DNA of 14,130 nt. It comes from Thoreauomyces humboldtii. Taxonomy: Eukaryota; Chytridiomycota; Chytridiomycetes; Spizellomycetales; Powellomycetaceae. Of the stretch, positions 4,022-11,006 are shown one piece after another. The position numbers and the translations under genes are program-made. The first letter of the stretch is position 1. Each line of letters starts with the position of its first letter. The notes beneath the pieces are model-generated. The model did no database searches. It was not told where the DNA came from and worked only from the letters and a program-made list of their open reading frames with translations. The stretch is taken from positions 1-14,130 of the forward strand of contig JADGJA010000407.1 of assembly GCA_027596035.1 (NCBI GenBank), given 5' to 3'.

Positions 4022-7000
4022 CTATTGTTGCTGGAGGCGATCCAGCGTAAACGTGCTGCATGTATGTGGACCCATCTCCTGCAGCACCGGCAGCACGTCG
4101 CTGCTGTGCGCGATAAGGTAAACCGTGAGCGGCTGTCCGAGGTAGTCGACCTGGCGTTGGGCTTCCCTCTGCACGCACTCTAGGCACACCTTAAAGCCCG
4201 CTACGTCAACGTGGCAGAACACCTCATCGAGGAAGATCACGCTCGAGGCGAGGCCGAGGCGTTGGTACATCATGCGCCTCAGTGCGCAGCTCAGGCCCAG
4301 TGCCATGGAATTTTTCTGCCCCTGGGAACAGTTGCTCCACGAGCGGCGACCACCGTTTTTCAGGCACGCATAGATGGTGACCTGCGTTGAACCGTCCAGC
4401 TCCTCGATGGCGATCGGCGGCCGAGTAGGGAAGTGCTGCTGCAAGATGACGTTTGTGAGGTTGGTAAGCGCTTTGTAAACGTGACAACGAAGCTGCCTGG
4501 CGGCCGGACCGTCATGTGCCGCGGCATCTCGGATGGCTTGATAAATCTTCTGTTCACGCTCGCACGATTTGACCTTGCAGTCTTCCGCATCCGCTCTCGT
4601 TTTGAGATCATCACAGTTCTGGAAACTTACGTCATACCGTTGTTGTGCGGTCTCTTGCTGGCCTAGCAAGTCCACCAGCTTGCGAAGACATAGGAGTTCC
4701 AGGTAGGCCTGATAGCGAACGCTCTCTTTCAACTGCTGAGCTTGAGTTCTGATCTCTTTGACGTGTCCCTGCCAAATGTGAGCACGCTGTCCAACTTCGC
4801 GAATCCTCTGCGGCAGCTGCTGCAGCGATAGTCCAATGACATCTTGAACATTTTTGTCATACGCCGCGACGCTTGCCCAGGCGAGCTGGACGGCGAGCTG
4901 CTTCTTGGCGAGTATTCGCTGTGCTGTGTTGCATGTGCATGAACGGCACTTTGCCTGCTCCGCCTCCTGAAGCTGATCAAGGAGCTCTTGCAGTTGTACT
5001 TTCAACGCATGCAACGTCGATATGGCTTGGTCACCGTCTTTAATCTGGGACCGAAGCTTGTTTAGCGCTTCCGATGATGATTGGCCAACAACGGCTTCTC
5101 TCTTGTCCAATTCCTTCTTGAGCTCCGGTAAAGTCAGCGCCGTGAACGGCAGGGTCTTGGAGGCTGCTCGCTGCGCAAGAACTTGTTGTTCTGTCGCCTT
5201 CAACGCTTGCTGGCATTGCTGCAAAACACTTTTGGCTTCCTCGTGAAGCTTGGCCTGCTTGCTGCTCTCCTTGCGTGCGGCCTCGTACTTCTCGGAGCGC
5301 GAGGTATAAGCTTCCGAGGCGGCATGGAAGAAGCGTCTGAGTTTGGCGAGTCGGAAGCGTGCAAATACGGTAAGCTCGGGTAGCTGGGTCGCAGGGTTTT
5401 TGCTCGTGAGTTGCGAGATCCAGTCGGACATAGAATCGTTGTGCTGAAAGGTCGTGAGCGACAGCAGGGTTCGAGCGGCCGTGAAGATGTCCGGTTCGTT
5501 TGCCGCGAACGAAGGATCGATGCGACACAGGTGTTTAAACAGATCGCAGGCAGTCGAAGCTGCATCTGTGGTGGTGCGCGCCTGCAGCGCGGTGGGACAG
5601 GCGTTTGCTCGCGGATCAGTGTGCAGAACAAAGTTCACGTCGACACTCGCATGGGCTTGCCTCCCCAGCGCTTCCACTGCATCCTCATTTATAAATTCGC
5701 AGACGTCGTCGTTGGTTGGGCTGACGACGCTGCGCACGCTACCGGTGAGCGCCCACTGAAGTGCCAGCATGAGGCTGCTCTTACCGGCTCCATTTTCGCC
5801 GGCCAGATGCACGATGTGAGCACGACGACTAAGGGAGCCGAATCGAGCGAGCTGGTACTTCCGCGAAGCACCGTGCACGAAGGAAAACTCGGTCAGAGTC
5901 GCCGCCATCACCTCGACGAAAGGGAAGCGAGGCAGCTCCTCAGCCGCCTCGACGCCGGAGGACAGTCCGTTCCAGAGGTCCTGAGCAGCCTTCATGCGTC
6001 GCGGCAGCTCTTCGCGGAGTAGCATCAGTTTCGATTGGTAAACGGCAGCATTCGCTGCCAATGGTACACGACCTTCGTGCTGCTTGCACTCGTCTTGCCC
6101 GAGCCGGGCCACCGTGTCGAGGATGAGTTGCTCAACGAAGGTTGCATCATCAGCGTCCTCCGAGCCAAGCTCGTTCCAAACACGACCCTCGTCCTCATTT
6201 TCATGCACAGGGGCAATCAGTGCCACCGACTCGAATGGATCAGATTTTTCCTCCTCTCCCTCGCCGGACAGTTTCATGCGCTTCGACGGTCGCGCGACGA
6301 ACTTGCGTTTCACTTCGAGCTTCACGATCGCTTTTACGCGCTGCTCGATTGCTGCCTTATGCTTCAGCACGGCCGTCTCTTCCGTTTGTTGGTAGTGCAC
6401 GACAATCGTATCGCCGTCGAGGTACGATGACGCCATTGTGCGTAAGAACGGCGCACCATCTGTGTACAGGAAGAACCGTTCTACCAGCATCAGCTCGATG
6501 GAGGAGAGCGGCGCACCACCCGGGCGCGCCGACTCGATCGTCAGGGCGCGGCGCAAAGGACTGCCGTCCTCAAGATCGAGCTGGAACGGCGATCCGACTG
6601 TGTAGAGAGCGGACGTGCCGGACAGCTGGTTGCATGGTACACGTTCGAAGCCGCTGACCAGCGTGAAGGTGTCTGTGGGCAGTAGGTCGCTGGCGAAGAC
6701 AGCGGGCAGGCCGTGAAGGGTGTTGCAATCGGCTGCAGGGTCGCGAGCCCCGAGCGAGAGCGGGTTGCACACGCAGACCGTATGGATGCTCGGGTCATTC
6801 ACTCGAGCGGCGCGGATGAGCTTCAGCAGGCAGATATCGGGCTGCCGGACAAAGGGCACCAGCAGCAGGCCATGGAACTGCGCTTTTAGATGCACGCGAA
6901 CCGCATCGATGTGCAGGACCTGAATCTGCGCCACGCCAGCACCTTGCAAAAGGAACAGAAAGCTCGCATCACTGTCGCTGTCGGCGATGATGTCTCGCTG

Positions 7001-7441
7001 ACCTGCGACCAGCACGAGGTCGAGCTGCGAAGGAAACTCATCACGAAAGTAGTTGCGCACCTCGAGCAGCAGCGCCATCTCCGCGCTGCGCTCGCTGGAT
7101 ATGCGCTGTGCGGCGAAGAAACTACCTAAGTGCACTATGCGCTGGTGGCCCTCAGCAACACAGTGCCGTGCGAGCCCATCCAGCACACGCTTGCACAGTG
7201 GCCAGCTGGAGCGACTGACGCACAGATTGCTCACCACCAGCGACGAACCGTTAGCGACGACCTGCGACGGAGCGGAAGAGGGCATCGGCGAGGAAGCGGG
7301 TGGGGGTGCGACTGCGGCAGCGTCGCGGTGCAGTTCCTCGCAAAAGTCGTCCGCCATCAAGAGCCACTCGTCGCCAGCTGACTTGTGCTCGCGAACAGTA
7401 GTGGCCGGAATAGCTGCCGTGGTATCACCTACAGCGCTCAT
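4022..7441 (-). CDS. Fused SbcD/Mre11-like (inactive) and SbcC/Rad50-like ATPase, 1139 aa
   Basis: Single uninterrupted exon. ATG at 7441 opens the frame and no ATG lies in the leader back to about 7661. Residues 68-292 follow the SbcD/Mre11 phosphoesterase order: SNLC (canonical SDxH), HLGSFF (GD), VAGQRD (GNHD), VPFVRQPD (the SbcD PYLRxRD-like strand), CNPLSLGA (the H..GA strand), GFER (GHxH) and YTVGSP (YxGSP). The fold markers survive while the metal ligands are replaced. A possible bipartite NLS (KRKFVARPSKRMKL, 378-391) and an acidic stretch follow. Residues 508-1139 form a Rad50/SbcC ATPase: Walker A GENGAGKSS (548-556), Q-loop around Q666, two coiled-coil arms, zinc hook CRSC (832-835), signature CSQGQ (1038-1042), Walker B IFLDE (D1072-E1073) and H-loop H1112. 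The arms are much shorter than in eukaryotic Rad50, nearer to phage or bacterial SbcC. Probable role: DNA-end binding or tethering ATPase working with its divergent neighbour. Family assignment is strong; the biological role is unknown. Confidence 0.88.
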   Translation of the reverse strand: MSAVGDTTAAIPATTVREHKSAGDEWLLMADDFCEELHRDAAAVAPPPASSPMPSSAPSQVVANGSSLVVSNLCVSRSSWPLCKRVLDGLARHCVAEGHQRIVHLGSFFAAQRISSERSAEMALLLEVRNYFRDEFPSQLDLVLVAGQRDIIADSDSDASFLFLLQGAGVAQIQVLHIDAVRVHLKAQFHGLLLVPFVRQPDICLLKLIRAARVNDPSIHTVCVCNPLSLGARDPAADCNTLHGLPAVFASDLLPTDTFTLVSGFERVPCNQLSGTSALYTVGSPFQLDLEDGSPLRRALTIESARPGGAPLSSIELMLVERFFLYTDGAPFLRTMASSYLDGDTIVVHYQQTEETAVLKHKAAIEQRVKAIVKLEVKRKFVARPSKRMKLSGEGEEEKSDPFESVALIAPVHENEDEGRVWNELGSEDADDATFVEQLILDTVARLGQDECKQHEGRVPLAANAAVYQSKLMLLREELPRRMKAAQDLWNGLSSGVEAAEELPRFPFVEVMAATLTEFSFVHGASRKYQLARFGSLSRRAHIVHLAGENGAGKSSLMLALQWALTGSVRSVVSPTNDDVCEFINEDAVEALGRQAHASVDVNFVLHTDPRANACPTALQARTTTDAASTACDLFKHLCRIDPSFAANEPDIFTAARTLLSLTTFQHNDSMSDWISQLTSKNPATQLPELTVFARFRLAKLRRFFHAASEAYTSRSEKYEAARKESSKQAKLHEEAKSVLQQCQQALKATEQQVLAQRAASKTLPFTALTLPELKKELDKREAVVGQSSSEALNKLRSQIKDGDQAISTLHALKVQLQELLDQLQEAEQAKCRSCTCNTAQRILAKKQLAVQLAWASVAAYDKNVQDVIGLSLQQLPQRIREVGQRAHIWQGHVKEIRTQAQQLKESVRYQAYLELLCLRKLVDLLGQQETAQQRYDVSFQNCDDLKTRADAEDCKVKSCEREQKIYQAIRDAAAHDGPAARQLRCHVYKALTNLTNVILQQHFPTRPPIAIEELDGSTQVTIYACLKNGGRRSWSNCSQGQKNSMALGLSCALRRMMYQRLGLASSVIFLDEVFCHVDVAGFKVCLECVQREAQRQVDYLGQPLTVYLIAHSSDVLPVLQEMGPHTCSTFTLDRLQQQ

Positions 7442-7656
7442 CGTAGCCCGGAAGTTCTTGCGGCTGTTGTTGCTGTGTGGTGGGCGGCTGGGGCGAACTA
7501 GCGGCGCACGCCTGCACCAAAGGCAGCCAAAACGCGCCTTCCTGACGGTCGCACGTACCGCGCGAGAAGAGGGAGAAGAATGTGGAAGTGCGACGATGCA
7601 ACTTGAAGTCGGGGTGGTCTCTGTCCTGCACTTAGGTCGCTATGCGTACCCGTAAT

Positions 7657-7678
7657 AGTCATGACTCATGTGACTCAC
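7657..7678. promoter_or_regulatory. Composite AP-1/Gcn4-type bZIP sites in the divergent promoter
   Basis: A 10-bp palindrome AGTCATGACT (7657-7666) overlaps a perfect ATGACTCAT (7661-7669), followed at once by GTGACTCAC (7670-7678). This gives two full TGACTCA cores plus an extra half-site within 22 bp, midway between the two divergent genes. Such sites bind AP-1, Gcn4 or Yap-type bZIP factors in fungi. Stress or starvation control of both genes is inferred from this clustering. Confidence 0.55.
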
Positions 7679-7710
7679 AAAAGGACGTCGAACGCTTCCT
7701 TCCCTCTTAT

Positions 7711-7716
7711 TATATA
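7711..7716 (+). promoter_or_regulatory. TATA box for the NERD-helicase gene
   Basis: TATATA in the context TTATTATATAGG, 92 nt before the ATG at 7803 and about 33 bp downstream of the paired bZIP sites. It is the only TATA-like element in the 361-bp divergent spacer. No counterpart was seen for the minus-strand gene. Confidence 0.5.
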
Positions 7717-7802
7717 GGCTCCCTCTGAGTTGAATCGCGCAACCGCAGGCGAGTTCCACGACCTGCCGCTTCTCATTGCAGCAGTCGTACCGTTTGCTCA
7801 CC

Positions 7803-10211
7803 ATGTCCTTCGCAGCGTCAAGTGCAGGAGATGTGCCGGCCTCAGCTACCGCGCCTTCCGCTGCGATGATGGTCGACGTAGTTCCGACAATTGAGACCGA
7901 GATCCCTGACGGCCGTGACATCTCTTCGAATCATCTCCTCGGCGCGCTGCACTCGGTCCCACTCGGGCGGGTCGGCCTGCTGCCTGACTCGGCAGCTCTG
8001 CTCTCTGCGTCGACGACGACGGGTGAGCAACTGCTTTATGACAGGATCGCCGAGATGCAACTCGATCCCAAGGAGCGCTTGCTGTGCCTGTTCGGATACA
8101 AGTATAATTCCCCCAGGGACAAGGCACCTGCTCCACTCGCCAACCGCCAACCCCTCGCGGCTGATGAGAACTCCGAGCACTACTGCTACGCGCCGGGCGA
8201 GTCCGACGCAGCTCTGTTTTACCAGCACCAGGACTGGACCTCTCCGCCGCTTCTGCTGTGTCTCGAGGTGAAGGACAAGCACGGCAACCCCAACGGTATC
8301 TCGAGTGTGGCACAGGAAGCCGTGATTCAATGCGTGCGCGCGTGCGGCGAGTTTTCGACACGGTGGTTCCGCCACCACGCAGGCAAACCCGCGCCGCTCC
8401 TGCAGTTTGCATGGGGCGTGGTGCTTCCTGTCTCCAACCAGAGGGAACTGCCTCGGCTTCAGTCGGAGGATACGCGCTACACATTGGCCCAACAGCTCGA
8501 GCCGGTGGAGCAGGACCCGGCAGACGCGTACGGCCTCGCCACACCCAAGGCTCTTCTATTGGAACCCGAGGCGAAGCATCTCGGTCCACGGCTTGCGTGC
8601 TGGGAGCAGCAGCTGGAGTCGTCGGACACGTTACTCGCCTGGATTCGCGACCTTGCGACCGGATGGAAGAATGTGTATCAACATTACGCTTCGGCCGGTG
8701 CAAATCCGGGTGATGATCACTGGATGAGGGTGGCCATGCGTACGCGGGCGCTATACTTCAGCGGGCACCCTGTCTACACATTAGCCACCGCAAGCGATGC
8801 AGCCACCTTCTTTCACTCGCTGTGCCCGCTGACCTCCTCCCGCCTCGCGTTCCACCTGGACGAGTCCAGGCAGACGATTGACAGGATAAGCAAAAATGTT
8901 GTGGGTCTGGGAGGCAAGAGACTTGTTGCCACTTCAGAGCAGTACGTCGTGCTCAAGACAAAAATACAAGATCTGCCCCGTCACGTCGTTGACGGGTTTT
9001 CCGGTACAGGCAAGACACTCTGTGCACTCCTCCGCGCAGAATCCCTTGCGAACAATCTCACCAAAGGCGAAGACAAGGTGCTCTTCCTGTGCTCGACGAA
9101 GCCGCTGCTTTCTTTCCTCTCCGCTACCTGGAAGCACGAGGCGATCCTGTACCACAACATTCATCGCTTCCTGGCCGCTCTGCTTAACACTCTTGGAATC
9201 ACGGAGCCGCTCAGCCAGGAAGAAGCGGCCACACTTCTGTTAAAGAATTATGCCTCTCAGTTACCGGCGTGTGTCCGCAAGGCGTTCGGCTGCACGATCG
9301 CTCACCTGGTACTAGACGAGGGCCAGGATTTTGTGCCGCAATCGCTACAGCTACTTGAACTTATCATGCAGCCGCAAGCTGACGGCACGTTTTGGATATT
9401 CCGCGACGTGCTGCAGGCTTATTACTCGGGCACCTACCAGAATCTGAGTAAATGCGACGAAATGCCAAATTTCAAGGATGACGAGCCTAGCACGCTGACT
9501 TACATCCTGCGTCACTCGCGCGAAATCCACGATCGCGTGGCGGATAGTCTCGCTCGGCGTCTCCAAACCCTGGACGAGCTCGGCGTCCGGACTAGTTCCA
9601 TTGCCTCCTGCGTTTTGGCCTTTGACCAGCTGCCAAAAGGTACACCTGTCGCCACTCACTACCTCAACGATTTCCCAGATCAAGCGGCGTTTACATACGT
9701 TCGCAAAGCCTTGGTGAAGCTGCTGGCCGCCTGCGACGTCAGTTCTCGCAAACAGCGCCTGCTCGATCGCAATTACCGTACCGTGCCGCTCGCGATCCTC
9801 ACATCTTACTCCGACAACACGAATACCACCAGGCAATTTGTTAGTGGTTTGCGCAAGGTCGTTGACGAGATCCTAGACCGTCACAAAGCCACACACATCA
9901 CGGTGGTCGACGCTGAGCAGTACTACGTCAACCCGCCAAGCGATACGGTGCTGCTTCCGTCAGGCGGGCAGCCGAAAGTCAGCATCGTGATGGATACGTT
10001 TAAGCGCTTTGCCGGTTTGGAGGCCCTTGCCGTGATAGCCATTGATCCGTTTCCTGCTCCTGCCGCTGACACGCTGAAGCCCCTGTATCTCTATACCGGC
10101 CTCTCGCGAGCCATAGGCCACTTAGAGATGATCCTGCACTCATCATACGAGGGTTACCTAAAGCCGGACGCAAAAAACAAGAAGCAGAAGAAGAAGTCGC
10201 CACTCGCTTAG
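7803..10211 (+). CDS. NERD/PD-(D/E)XK-like nuclease fused to UvrD-like SF1 helicase, 802 aa
   Basis: Intronless. The first ATG is at 7803 in good context (CTCACCATGT); the frame is open 27 nt further upstream but without ATG. Residues about 74-175 look like a nuclease-related (NERD) domain: G74-E75 opening, D135 (ESDAALF), E155-V-K157 (CLEVKDK) and Q172, the D...ExK pattern of PD-(D/E)XK nucleases. The helicase core follows: Walker A GFSGTGKT (398-405), motif II LVLDEGQD (502-509), motif III FWIFRDVLQAYY (530-541), motif IV YILRHSREIH (567-576), motif V-like DTFKRFAGLEALAV (731-744) and motif VI YTGLSRA (764-770, R769 as arginine-finger candidate). The C-terminus is lysine-rich (AKNKKQKKKSPLA), a likely nuclear-localisation or DNA-contact tail. 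It diverges from the SbcCD-like gene across a 361-bp spacer. The helicase call is strong; the nuclease is likely but rests on a short motif. Confidence 0.85.
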   Translation: MSFAASSAGDVPASATAPSAAMMVDVVPTIETEIPDGRDISSNHLLGALHSVPLGRVGLLPDSAALLSASTTTGEQLLYDRIAEMQLDPKERLLCLFGYKYNSPRDKAPAPLANRQPLAADENSEHYCYAPGESDAALFYQHQDWTSPPLLLCLEVKDKHGNPNGISSVAQEAVIQCVRACGEFSTRWFRHHAGKPAPLLQFAWGVVLPVSNQRELPRLQSEDTRYTLAQQLEPVEQDPADAYGLATPKALLLEPEAKHLGPRLACWEQQLESSDTLLAWIRDLATGWKNVYQHYASAGANPGDDHWMRVAMRTRALYFSGHPVYTLATASDAATFFHSLCPLTSSRLAFHLDESRQTIDRISKNVVGLGGKRLVATSEQYVVLKTKIQDLPRHVVDGFSGTGKTLCALLRAESLANNLTKGEDKVLFLCSTKPLLSFLSATWKHEAILYHNIHRFLAALLNTLGITEPLSQEEAATLLLKNYASQLPACVRKAFGCTIAHLVLDEGQDFVPQSLQLLELIMQPQADGTFWIFRDVLQAYYSGTYQNLSKCDEMPNFKDDEPSTLTYILRHSREIHDRVADSLARRLQTLDELGVRTSSIASCVLAFDQLPKGTPVATHYLNDFPDQAAFTYVRKALVKLLAACDVSSRKQRLLDRNYRTVPLAILTSYSDNTNTTRQFVSGLRKVVDEILDRHKATHITVVDAEQYYVNPPSDTVLLPSGGQPKVSIVMDTFKRFAGLEALAVIAIDPFPAPAADTLKPLYLYTGLSRAIGHLEMILHSSYEGYLKPDAKNKKQKKKSPLA

Positions 10212-10481
10212 AATGCCGTCATTCCCAGCGAGGCCAGCACGATTGAACGTGCTGTCAGCCCGATGTGCCCGTTACCTTTGCGAGCTAAGGCACGCTACAT
10301 GATGTTTCCGCGTTACATATACGATACGATGGATTGGGCGATCCATAGCGGTCACATTGCGGTGCTAGCCTGGTGGGAACAAAGCAGTCTCGAGCTCAAA
10401 TACAGCAAGGATGCGCTGGATTGGGCTAGTAAGATAGTTCACATCGCTGCGCTAGACTGGTGGAAACTTCTGGTGGGATAG
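10212..10481 (+). pseudogene. Ankyrin-like repeat remnant, in frame with the helicase gene
   Basis: From ATG 10263 a 72-residue frame contains two copies of an ankyrin-type unit: MDWAIHSGHIAVLAWW and LDWASKIVHIAALDWW. They are separated by SSLELKYSKDA, which resembles the usual linker of this repeat type. At DNA level the two units also align (GGATTGGGC...GCTAG.CTGGTGG). The frame is the same as that of the helicase gene and contains no stop between its TAG (10209-10211) and the TAG at 10479-10481. Such repeats normally occur in long arrays, so two units look like the debris of a larger gene. Alternatives are a genuine small protein or a C-terminal extension of the helicase reached by stop readthrough or lost by a recent nonsense mutation. 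Confidence 0.5.
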
Positions 10482-10509
10482 GACAGCGGTGCGTGAAAAT
10501 GGGGGAAGT

Positions 10510-10546
10510 ATCTGCCCTTGTCCCGACATCTGCCCTTCGTCCCGAC
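10510..10546. repeat. Tandem duplication of an 18/19-bp unit
   Basis: ATCTGCCCTTGTCCCGAC (10510-10527) is followed directly by ATCTGCCCTTCGTCCCGAC (10528-10546), differing by one inserted base. Confidence 0.75.
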
Positions 10547-10564
10547 TTGCAAGCGAGCTTACCC

Positions 10565-10606
10565 AGGAAGTATGGCTCAGGAAGTATGGCCCTGGAAGTA
10601 TCAGAG
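10565..10606. repeat. 14-bp tandem repeat, left array
   Basis: Three consecutive 14-bp units: AGGAAGTATGGCTC, AGGAAGTATGGCCC and the degenerate TGGAAGTATCAGAG. The same unit reappears at 10904-10931. Confidence 0.8.
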
Positions 10607-10903
10607 GTTCGGGGAAATTGCAAGACATACCTTTTTTGACAAATCCAAGGATCCTGTTGCCAGAAGGTTTATCGTTCCAGGTTGACGATACTGTCTCTTG
10701 GGTGCATGGTGCGCCGTTCCGGGCGAGACAAAGTTGCTAGCAGAGCCAACCCGCAATCCGGTGCCCGCCATGATGCCGGTACTGGCATGTTGTGTTTTAC
10801 TGCGGCGCAGTTCAAGCTGTGTCTTGACTAACAACTTGAGAGCATCCATTCGTAAGCCCGCCTCCGAGTTGCATTCCAACTCGGTCCAAGTTGGATTCAA
10901 ACC

Positions 10904-10931
10904 CGGAAGTATGGCCCTGGAAGTATGGCCC
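10904..10931. repeat. 14-bp tandem repeat, right array touching the tRNA gene
   Basis: Two 14-bp units, CGGAAGTATGGCCC and TGGAAGTATGGCCC. The last four bases of the second unit (GCCC, 10928-10931) are also the first four bases of the tRNA acceptor stem. With the left array this brackets a segment of about 300 bp in direct orientation. Confidence 0.8.
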
Positions 10932-11000
10932 TTGTAGCAAAGCGGTCAATGCGTCTCCCTCGTAAGGAGAAGGTCCCAGGTTCAAATCCTGGTGAGGGTA
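10928..11000 (+). tRNA. tRNA-Thr (anticodon CGT)
   Basis: A 73-nt cloverleaf without intron. Acceptor GCCCTTG pairs with TGAGGGT (three wobble pairs), with discriminator A. The D arm closes with GCA/TGC. The anticodon stem TCTCC/GGAGA holds the loop CTCGTAA, so the anticodon is CGT (10961-10963), reading ACG. The T arm is CCAGG-TTCAAAT-CCTGG. The pol III A box (TAGCAAAGCGG) and B box (GGTTCAAATCC) are both present. The weak acceptor pairing and three-pair D stem leave a small chance that it is a decayed copy. Confidence 0.9.
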
Positions 11001-11006
11001 CTCACA

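Follow-up and report, generated by a model that had tools for sequence, protein, structure and literature searches.

A divergent gene pair in a chytrid fungus encoding a degenerate Mre11/Rad50-type fusion and a NERD nuclease-helicase: a possible two-gene DNA-end system

The window analysed here is the 14,130-bp contig JADGJA010000407.1 of Thoreauomyces humboldtii, taken whole from an assembly of 20.67 Mb in 823 contigs, and at its centre lie two long, divergently oriented open reading frames. ORF A (4022..7441, minus strand) encodes 1139 amino acids in a single uninterrupted frame, in which a degenerate SbcD/Mre11-like domain appears to be fused to an SbcC/Rad50-type ATPase. ORF B (7803..10211, plus strand), likewise a single uninterrupted frame, encodes 802 amino acids and is predicted to join a NERD-type nuclease to a UvrD-like SF1 helicase; the frame was listed as 7776-10211, which opens with TTG, and we count the protein from the first ATG at 7803. 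The preliminary description of this locus had reported a divergent pair separated by one gap of 361 bp and this holds exactly, since the intergenic region common to the two genes (7442..7802) measures 361 bp from start to start when ORF B begins at the ATG at 7803. Within the gap are two copies of TGACTCA (7662-7668 and 7671-7677, 9 bp apart), which we take to be bZIP/Gcn4-like sites. They are the only two TGASTCA matches in the whole window, where 2.19 would be expected. We found one copy of ORF A and one copy of ORF B in the genome, and their third-position GC contents (0.678 and 0.682, respectively) fall inside the host range of 0.49-0.76, as determined from 16 open frames of at least 250 codons in 48 kb of host sequence, not all of which need be genes. 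Five of these 16 frames span 540-812 codons; long intronless frames are therefore unremarkable in this host.

To the left of the pair, and on the same contig, Pfam matches identify pieces of THR4 (threonine synthase), and to the right lies a tRNA-Thr gene (10928-11001). A GC-rich direct repeat of 74 nt (2388-2461 and 2485-2558, 82% identity) sits between two THR4 frame pieces, perhaps within an intron. On the other side of the pair, a 14-bp GGAAGTATGGCCCT-like unit is repeated in tandem at 10549-10612 and again at 10902-10951; these repeats flank approximately 300 bp directly upstream of the tRNA-Thr gene and reach into that gene. Between the end of ORF B and the tRNA-Thr gene, the 716-bp stretch 10212-10927 is single copy in the genome. 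Contamination as the source of the contig was rejected on account of the 16 matches across the genome to the Zn2Cys6 domain, which is fungal, of the THR4 pieces on the same contig and of the host-like third-position GC.

By its sequence motifs the C-terminal half of ORF A is a complete SbcC/Rad50-type ATPase with a short coil and a zinc hook. ORF A matches the Pfam model AAA_23 over the model cut-off (9.7e-8) and its ATPase half matches an SbcC-like PHROG family (2.8e-14); the best NCBIfam match of this half is RecF (3.8e-8), far under the cut-off of that model. A tblastn search against phages returned 162 records, all of partial coverage and with the C-terminus matched. Among the 20 of these matches listed, identity to ORF A ranged from 22.6 to 31.0%, and those that are annotated are mostly exonuclease, nuclease or SbcC-like subunits. 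The same type of search against plasmids gave no match, a comparison of ORF A with PDB sequences gave nothing at E values up to 1 and single-protein scans of viral contigs found none. Nor was ORF A found in 23 whole genomes that contain related helicases, although an empty result from such a scan carries no weight. A six-row alignment of ORF A with five SbcC-like proteins of phages shows no variation at the Walker A residues, C832/C835, S1039/G1041, LDE 1071-1073, D1079 or H1112. Walker A (GENGAGKSS, residues 548-556) is encoded at 5774..5800, the zinc-hook-like CxxC formed by C832 and C835 lies inside the coiled-coil region (4937..4948), the signature is present as S1039/G1041, and Walker B (FLDEVF, with its Glu intact) and the D-loop together occupy residues 1070-1082 (4196..4234), all on the minus strand.

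The N-terminal part of ORF A has no match in Pfam, PHROG or NCBIfam. By eye it follows the order of SbcD, and hhalign against an SbcD profile of 44 rows, some of them redundant, places a degenerate SbcD/Mre11 domain at about residues 65-295 (6557..7249, minus strand) with a score of 38.84 (E 2.8e-4, probability 41%, 198 colinear columns). Control scores were 23.69 for the reversed sequence, 15.94 for the ATPase half of ORF A and at most 22.92 for 60 shuffles. Larger control sets reached at most 30.68 (396 decoys, which are long open frames in six frames and not all real proteins) and 27.22 (400 further shuffles), all below 38.84. The same part gave no match when compared by hhalign with five SbcD-like sequences. 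A single-sequence AlphaFold2 model of residues 55-400 was poor (pLDDT 41.7) and a fold search with this model returned no match at E 0.001, so the SbcD assignment rests on the profile comparison; the likeness is that of one sequence to a profile, and is recognisable only in this way.

The metal-site windows of ORF A read NLC (72-74), GS (106-107), AGQRD (146-150), CNPL (225-228) and SGFER (263-267). Of the residues expected from DxH, GD, GNHD, H and GHxH, D150, which ends GNHD, is the sole one retained, with the register uncertain in some windows, and two conserved motifs that are not catalytic, VPFVRQP (195-201) and VGSPFQ (282-287), are present. The catalytic residues of the nuclease half seem to be gone, and the replaced residues of the metal-site motifs argue for the inactive Mre11-like half that had been claimed for this gene. 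A basic patch, KRKFVARPSKRMKL (residues 378-391; 6269..6310, minus strand), resembles a nuclear localisation signal; its basic density was matched in 275 of 1000 shuffles and is not above chance.

In its predicted architecture ORF A fits the class of Mre11/Rad50 fusions, but it fails on the nuclease motif. One frame carries an SbcD/Mre11-like domain (by profile score only) followed by an SbcC/Rad50 ATPase, and Walker A, signature and Walker B are complete; the DxH / GDxxD / GNHD metal-site motif and the later histidines are absent. Thirteen Mre11/Rad50 fusions are reported from Mimivirus, one phage, bacteria, plasmids, moss, slime moulds, a diatom and green algae, with no fungus among them in the available part of the survey (PMC3175470, Virol J 2011). 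The same part of that survey proposes that the fusions were spread by viruses or plasmids and states that all cellular carriers except one also have the normal genes. As far as this source extends, ORF A shares with the fusions (for example Mimivirus R555) the single chain with Mre11 at the N-terminus and Rad50 at the C-terminus, the status of an extra to the host RAD50 and a sporadic occurrence; it differs from them in being fungal, in its replaced metal-site motifs (R555 retains nearly all of these residues), in its short coil and in having a nuclease-helicase gene alongside. The Deferribacter fusion was not located on its megaplasmid. Canonical Mre11-Rad50 consists of separate subunits with intact Mre11 motifs whereas in ORF A the two are fused and the motifs replaced, which places ORF A outside the canonical kind. 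In T4 gp46/gp47 and T5 D13/D12 the ATPase half is of similar size and has zinc-hook cysteines, as in ORF A, but these are two separate proteins whose nuclease motifs are intact.

The RAD50 of the host was identified by PDB match on another contig (C811), on which ground ORF A was rejected as the host RAD50. SMC2, SMC4, SMC5 and SMC6, assigned by eye, also lie elsewhere in the genome. With these genes accounted for, ORF A comes in addition to them and is non-canonical. MRE11 was not found in the genome with PF04152 (the control for which was empty), TIGR00583 or an 18-base pattern, a result that introns or assembly gaps could explain.

ORF B aligns over its full length with bacterial NERD-UvrD nuclease-helicases. 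Its NERD nuclease domain, of PD-(D/E)XK type (about residues 75-250; 8025..8552, plus strand), retains G132-E133-x-D135 and E155-V-K157, and its SF1 helicase domain (about residues 372-780; 8916..10142, plus strand) carries Q380, GFSGTGKT (398-405), DEGQDF (505-510), Q538, R570, RFAGLE (735-740) and SRA (768-770). In an alignment of ORF B with 58 relatives, D135, E155 and K157 are invariant in 59 of 59 sequences, as are the core helicase positions Q380, G398, G401, G403, K404, DEGQDF 505-510, Q538, R570, G738 and R769; E133 is conserved in at least 90% of the 59. A second alignment gave the same result, the nuclease and core helicase residues being invariant in 61 of 61. Both the GExD/ExK nuclease residues and the SF1 helicase motifs of NERD-UvrD proteins are therefore found in ORF B, which matches the PADLOC defence models NERD+UvrD (1.7e-8) and RTasNERD-Hel (4.2e-5). 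The Pfam NERD model (PF08378), applied to ORF B and to the 58 helicase loci (out of 83) that are aligned with it, reaches 50 of the 59 members and does not reach ORF B. A tblastn search with ORF B against phages gave no match. Compared with the bacterial NERD-UvrD proteins (PADLOC C3a187, RTasNERD-Hel), ORF B has the domain order, the nuclease D/E/K and the core SF1 residues in common but the identity is 18-24%; ORF B is extended at its N-terminus and contains insertions, and its C-terminal tail is basic. The tail includes the patch KNKKQKKK (residues 791-798; 10173..10196, plus strand), and its basic density was matched in 21 of 1000 shuffles; this patch, like that of ORF A, resembles a nuclear localisation signal.

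The structural model of ORF B was built with the alignment of relatives and is thus not independent of it. The model is weak in the first 400 residues, and the closest solved folds to its helicase part are SLFN11, SLFN14 and UvrD. Schlafens, including those of group III (SLFN11, SLFN14, SLFN5), have an N-terminal RNase module, whereas Pfam gave no match in residues 1-400 of ORF B. One VIA-align row places the ORF B model (44-780) on 7zel_A (393-899) at an rmsd of 12.9 and covers the nuclease region and the SLFN11 middle region. A connection of NERD with the linker domain of Schlafens is one possible reading of this row. In the available part of an account of BREX, NERD figures as a defence nuclease within PglW (PMC12839542).

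The preliminary description had also proposed that co-occurrence of the two genes be sought. We assembled 83 loci with an ORF B-type helicase, chosen by helicase similarity (the best 80 genome matches and 3 viral ones), for which the fetched flank was at least 2.5 kb on one side in 73 and on both sides in 48; the profile used for finding ATPase neighbours includes ORF A itself. An SbcC-type ATPase was present in the fetched flank at just two of the 83 (L087 and L104), and neither of these ATPases was seen fused to SbcD. The other profile matches, at L048, L074 and L084, look by eye like ABC transporters. Co-occurrence is thus hardly seen in these prokaryotic and viral loci, and in this 83-locus set the ORF A/ORF B-type pair is not a conserved prokaryotic operon.

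Several loci with related helicases have noteworthy neighbours. At L087 (7305-13750) the helicase adjoins DrmA- and DrmB-like genes and the SbcC-type ATPase adjoins a PDC-S31 gene, and at L015 (1-7014) and L016 (1-7005) bacterial NERD helicases adjoin helicase and DUF1998 genes. These three loci suggest that DISARM-like systems recurrently have a NERD helicase beside them. L104 (6801-16618), a Chloroflexota cluster, combines an ORF B-related helicase with a UvrD plus PD-(D/E)XK gene and an SbcC-like AAA_23 ATPase. In the titles and abstract openings of the best literature matches, a body of literature with most subscription journals outside it, we found neither a fungal NERD helicase nor a pairing of the ORF A/ORF B kind.

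Since ORF A and ORF B each have known relatives, neither is new alone. Both proteins are of known kinds, and what is new is the apparently nuclease-dead fusion and its pairing with a NERD helicase. The reading we favour, with a probability of about 0.42, is that the two are host-resident, probably nuclear DNA-processing proteins that share a divergent promoter and take part in one joint mechanism. The SbcC heads of ORF A would dimerise with ATP and clamp DNA ends, its zinc hook would bridge molecules, and its Mre11-like part would serve, with no nuclease activity of its own, as a scaffold for docking or DNA binding. ORF B, as an ATP-driven SF1 translocase, would unwind DNA and cut it with its NERD nuclease. 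Mre11-Rad50 works with the nuclease-helicase Dna2 in end resection, and by analogy ORF A would find or tether ends and ORF B, as an outsourced nuclease, would resect or degrade them, an end-tethering ATPase again being matched with a nuclease-helicase; the nuclease and helicase types of Dna2 differ from those of ORF B. The motifs support the anatomy that had been claimed for the pair and the predicted split between end binding in ORF A and unwinding and cutting in ORF B. We infer for the two proteins a nuclear location, these biochemical activities, a physical partnership and a target that would be either host breaks or foreign DNA.

The case for partnership is drawn from the adjacency of the genes, their shared promoter and the complementary loss and retention of nuclease motifs. 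Had the nuclease been handed over, one would expect it to be lost in ORF A and intact in ORF B, as the motifs indicate. Short divergent intergenic regions are frequent in compact fungal genomes, so the shared promoter is weak evidence of partnership. Against it also stands that the 83 helicase loci yielded no second example of the pair. A single system made up of ORF A and ORF B is plausible, at somewhat below even odds.

A substantial possibility, if a minority one, is that two unrelated repair genes of prokaryotic or viral type became neighbours by accident and each acts alone, ORF B as a repair nuclease-helicase and ORF A as an end-tethering factor, their shared promoter being incidental. 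The presence of an SbcC-type ATPase near related helicases at just two of the 83 loci (best 80 and 3 viral), neither of them seen fused to SbcD, is consistent with this, as is the statement in the available part of the fusion survey that such fusions are sporadic and were probably moved laterally (PMC3175470). On the other hand, chance adjacency of two rare prokaryote-type DNA-end genes would, by a rough reckoning, be improbable provided that a genome of several thousand genes has few of this sort, and the loss of nuclease motifs in one protein with their retention in the other fits complementation. We consider it rather unlikely that the pair is a genome-defence module, in which an ABC-type sensor and a nuclease-helicase effector would act against virus, plasmid or transposon in the manner of Lamassu or Gabija. 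Both of these systems combine an ABC-type ATPase with a separate nuclease or helicase partner, as ORF A and ORF B do; the ATPase half of ORF A is about the size of LmuB and has a zinc hook, as described for LmuB in the accessible part of a review of SMC defence (PMC10586767), and ORF A matches LmuB in PADLOC at 2.8e-17. ORF B matches the two NERD defence models given above, and bacterial relatives adjoin the DrmA/DrmB-like genes of L087 and the helicase and DUF1998 genes of L015 and L016. However, five of five SbcC/gp46 controls match the LmuB model better than ORF A does (8.9e-20 to 6.1e-29). The LmuB match is therefore generic and does not discriminate, and it lends Lamassu membership no support. 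Neither ORF matches LmuA or LmuC in PADLOC at E up to 1, and a change of Glu to Gln at Walker B, general for LmuB according to the same part of the review (PMC10586767), is not seen in ORF A, where FLDE (1070-1073) has the Glu. The analogy with Gabija that had been drawn for this pair survives as a functional one only: at E up to 1 ORF A matches neither GajA nor TOPRIM, so Gabija membership is not supported, and ORF B alone matches GajB weakly (0.0056). The ORF B family profile matches GajB structures at 1.4e-12 in a PDB profile search that also gives TAL effector rows, probably spurious.

It is improbable that the insertion of a mobile element or large DNA virus beside THR4 brought the genes there as cargo or left them as a relic. 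Mre11/Rad50 fusions do exist in Mimivirus, one phage and plasmids, according to the available part of the survey (PMC3175470), and the C-terminus of ORF A matches the phage exonuclease and SbcC-like subunits noted above. Yet the window holds no inverted repeat of at least 30 nt and just short, imperfect ones around the pair, the Pfam matches of six window ORFs include no transposase, the 716-bp flank beyond ORF B is single copy and base composition is host-like; the missing inverted repeat, the single-copy flank and the composition together argue against a mobile element. Very improbable, finally, is a role for ORF A as a nuclease-dead competitor or regulator of host Mre11-Rad50, unrelated to ORF B. 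The host does have its own RAD50, and an Mre11-like domain that is catalytically dead could still form dimers or bind DNA while leaving it uncut, but the best matches of ORF A are of phage or SbcC type, which makes assembly with host subunits doubtful; the best NCBIfam match of its ATPase half, RecF, is far under the cut-off.

The joint mechanism of ORF A and ORF B can be put in a more specific form, which we offer tentatively and regard as on the unlikely side: a eukaryotic two-gene DNA-end machine in which the fusion gave up its nuclease and delegates cutting to the divergent NERD helicase, for resection or for the destruction of foreign DNA. Should the two proteins act together, they would make up an end-processing complex of eukaryotes whose labour is divided in a new way: a nuclease-dead Mre11-Rad50 chain would sense and tether, and a NERD helicase would cut and unwind. 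NERD helicases, which adjoin DISARM-type genes at a few bacterial loci, would then be linked to eukaryotic DNA repair or defence, and ORF A would provide a natural separation-of-function case for the role of the Mre11 domain without nuclease activity.
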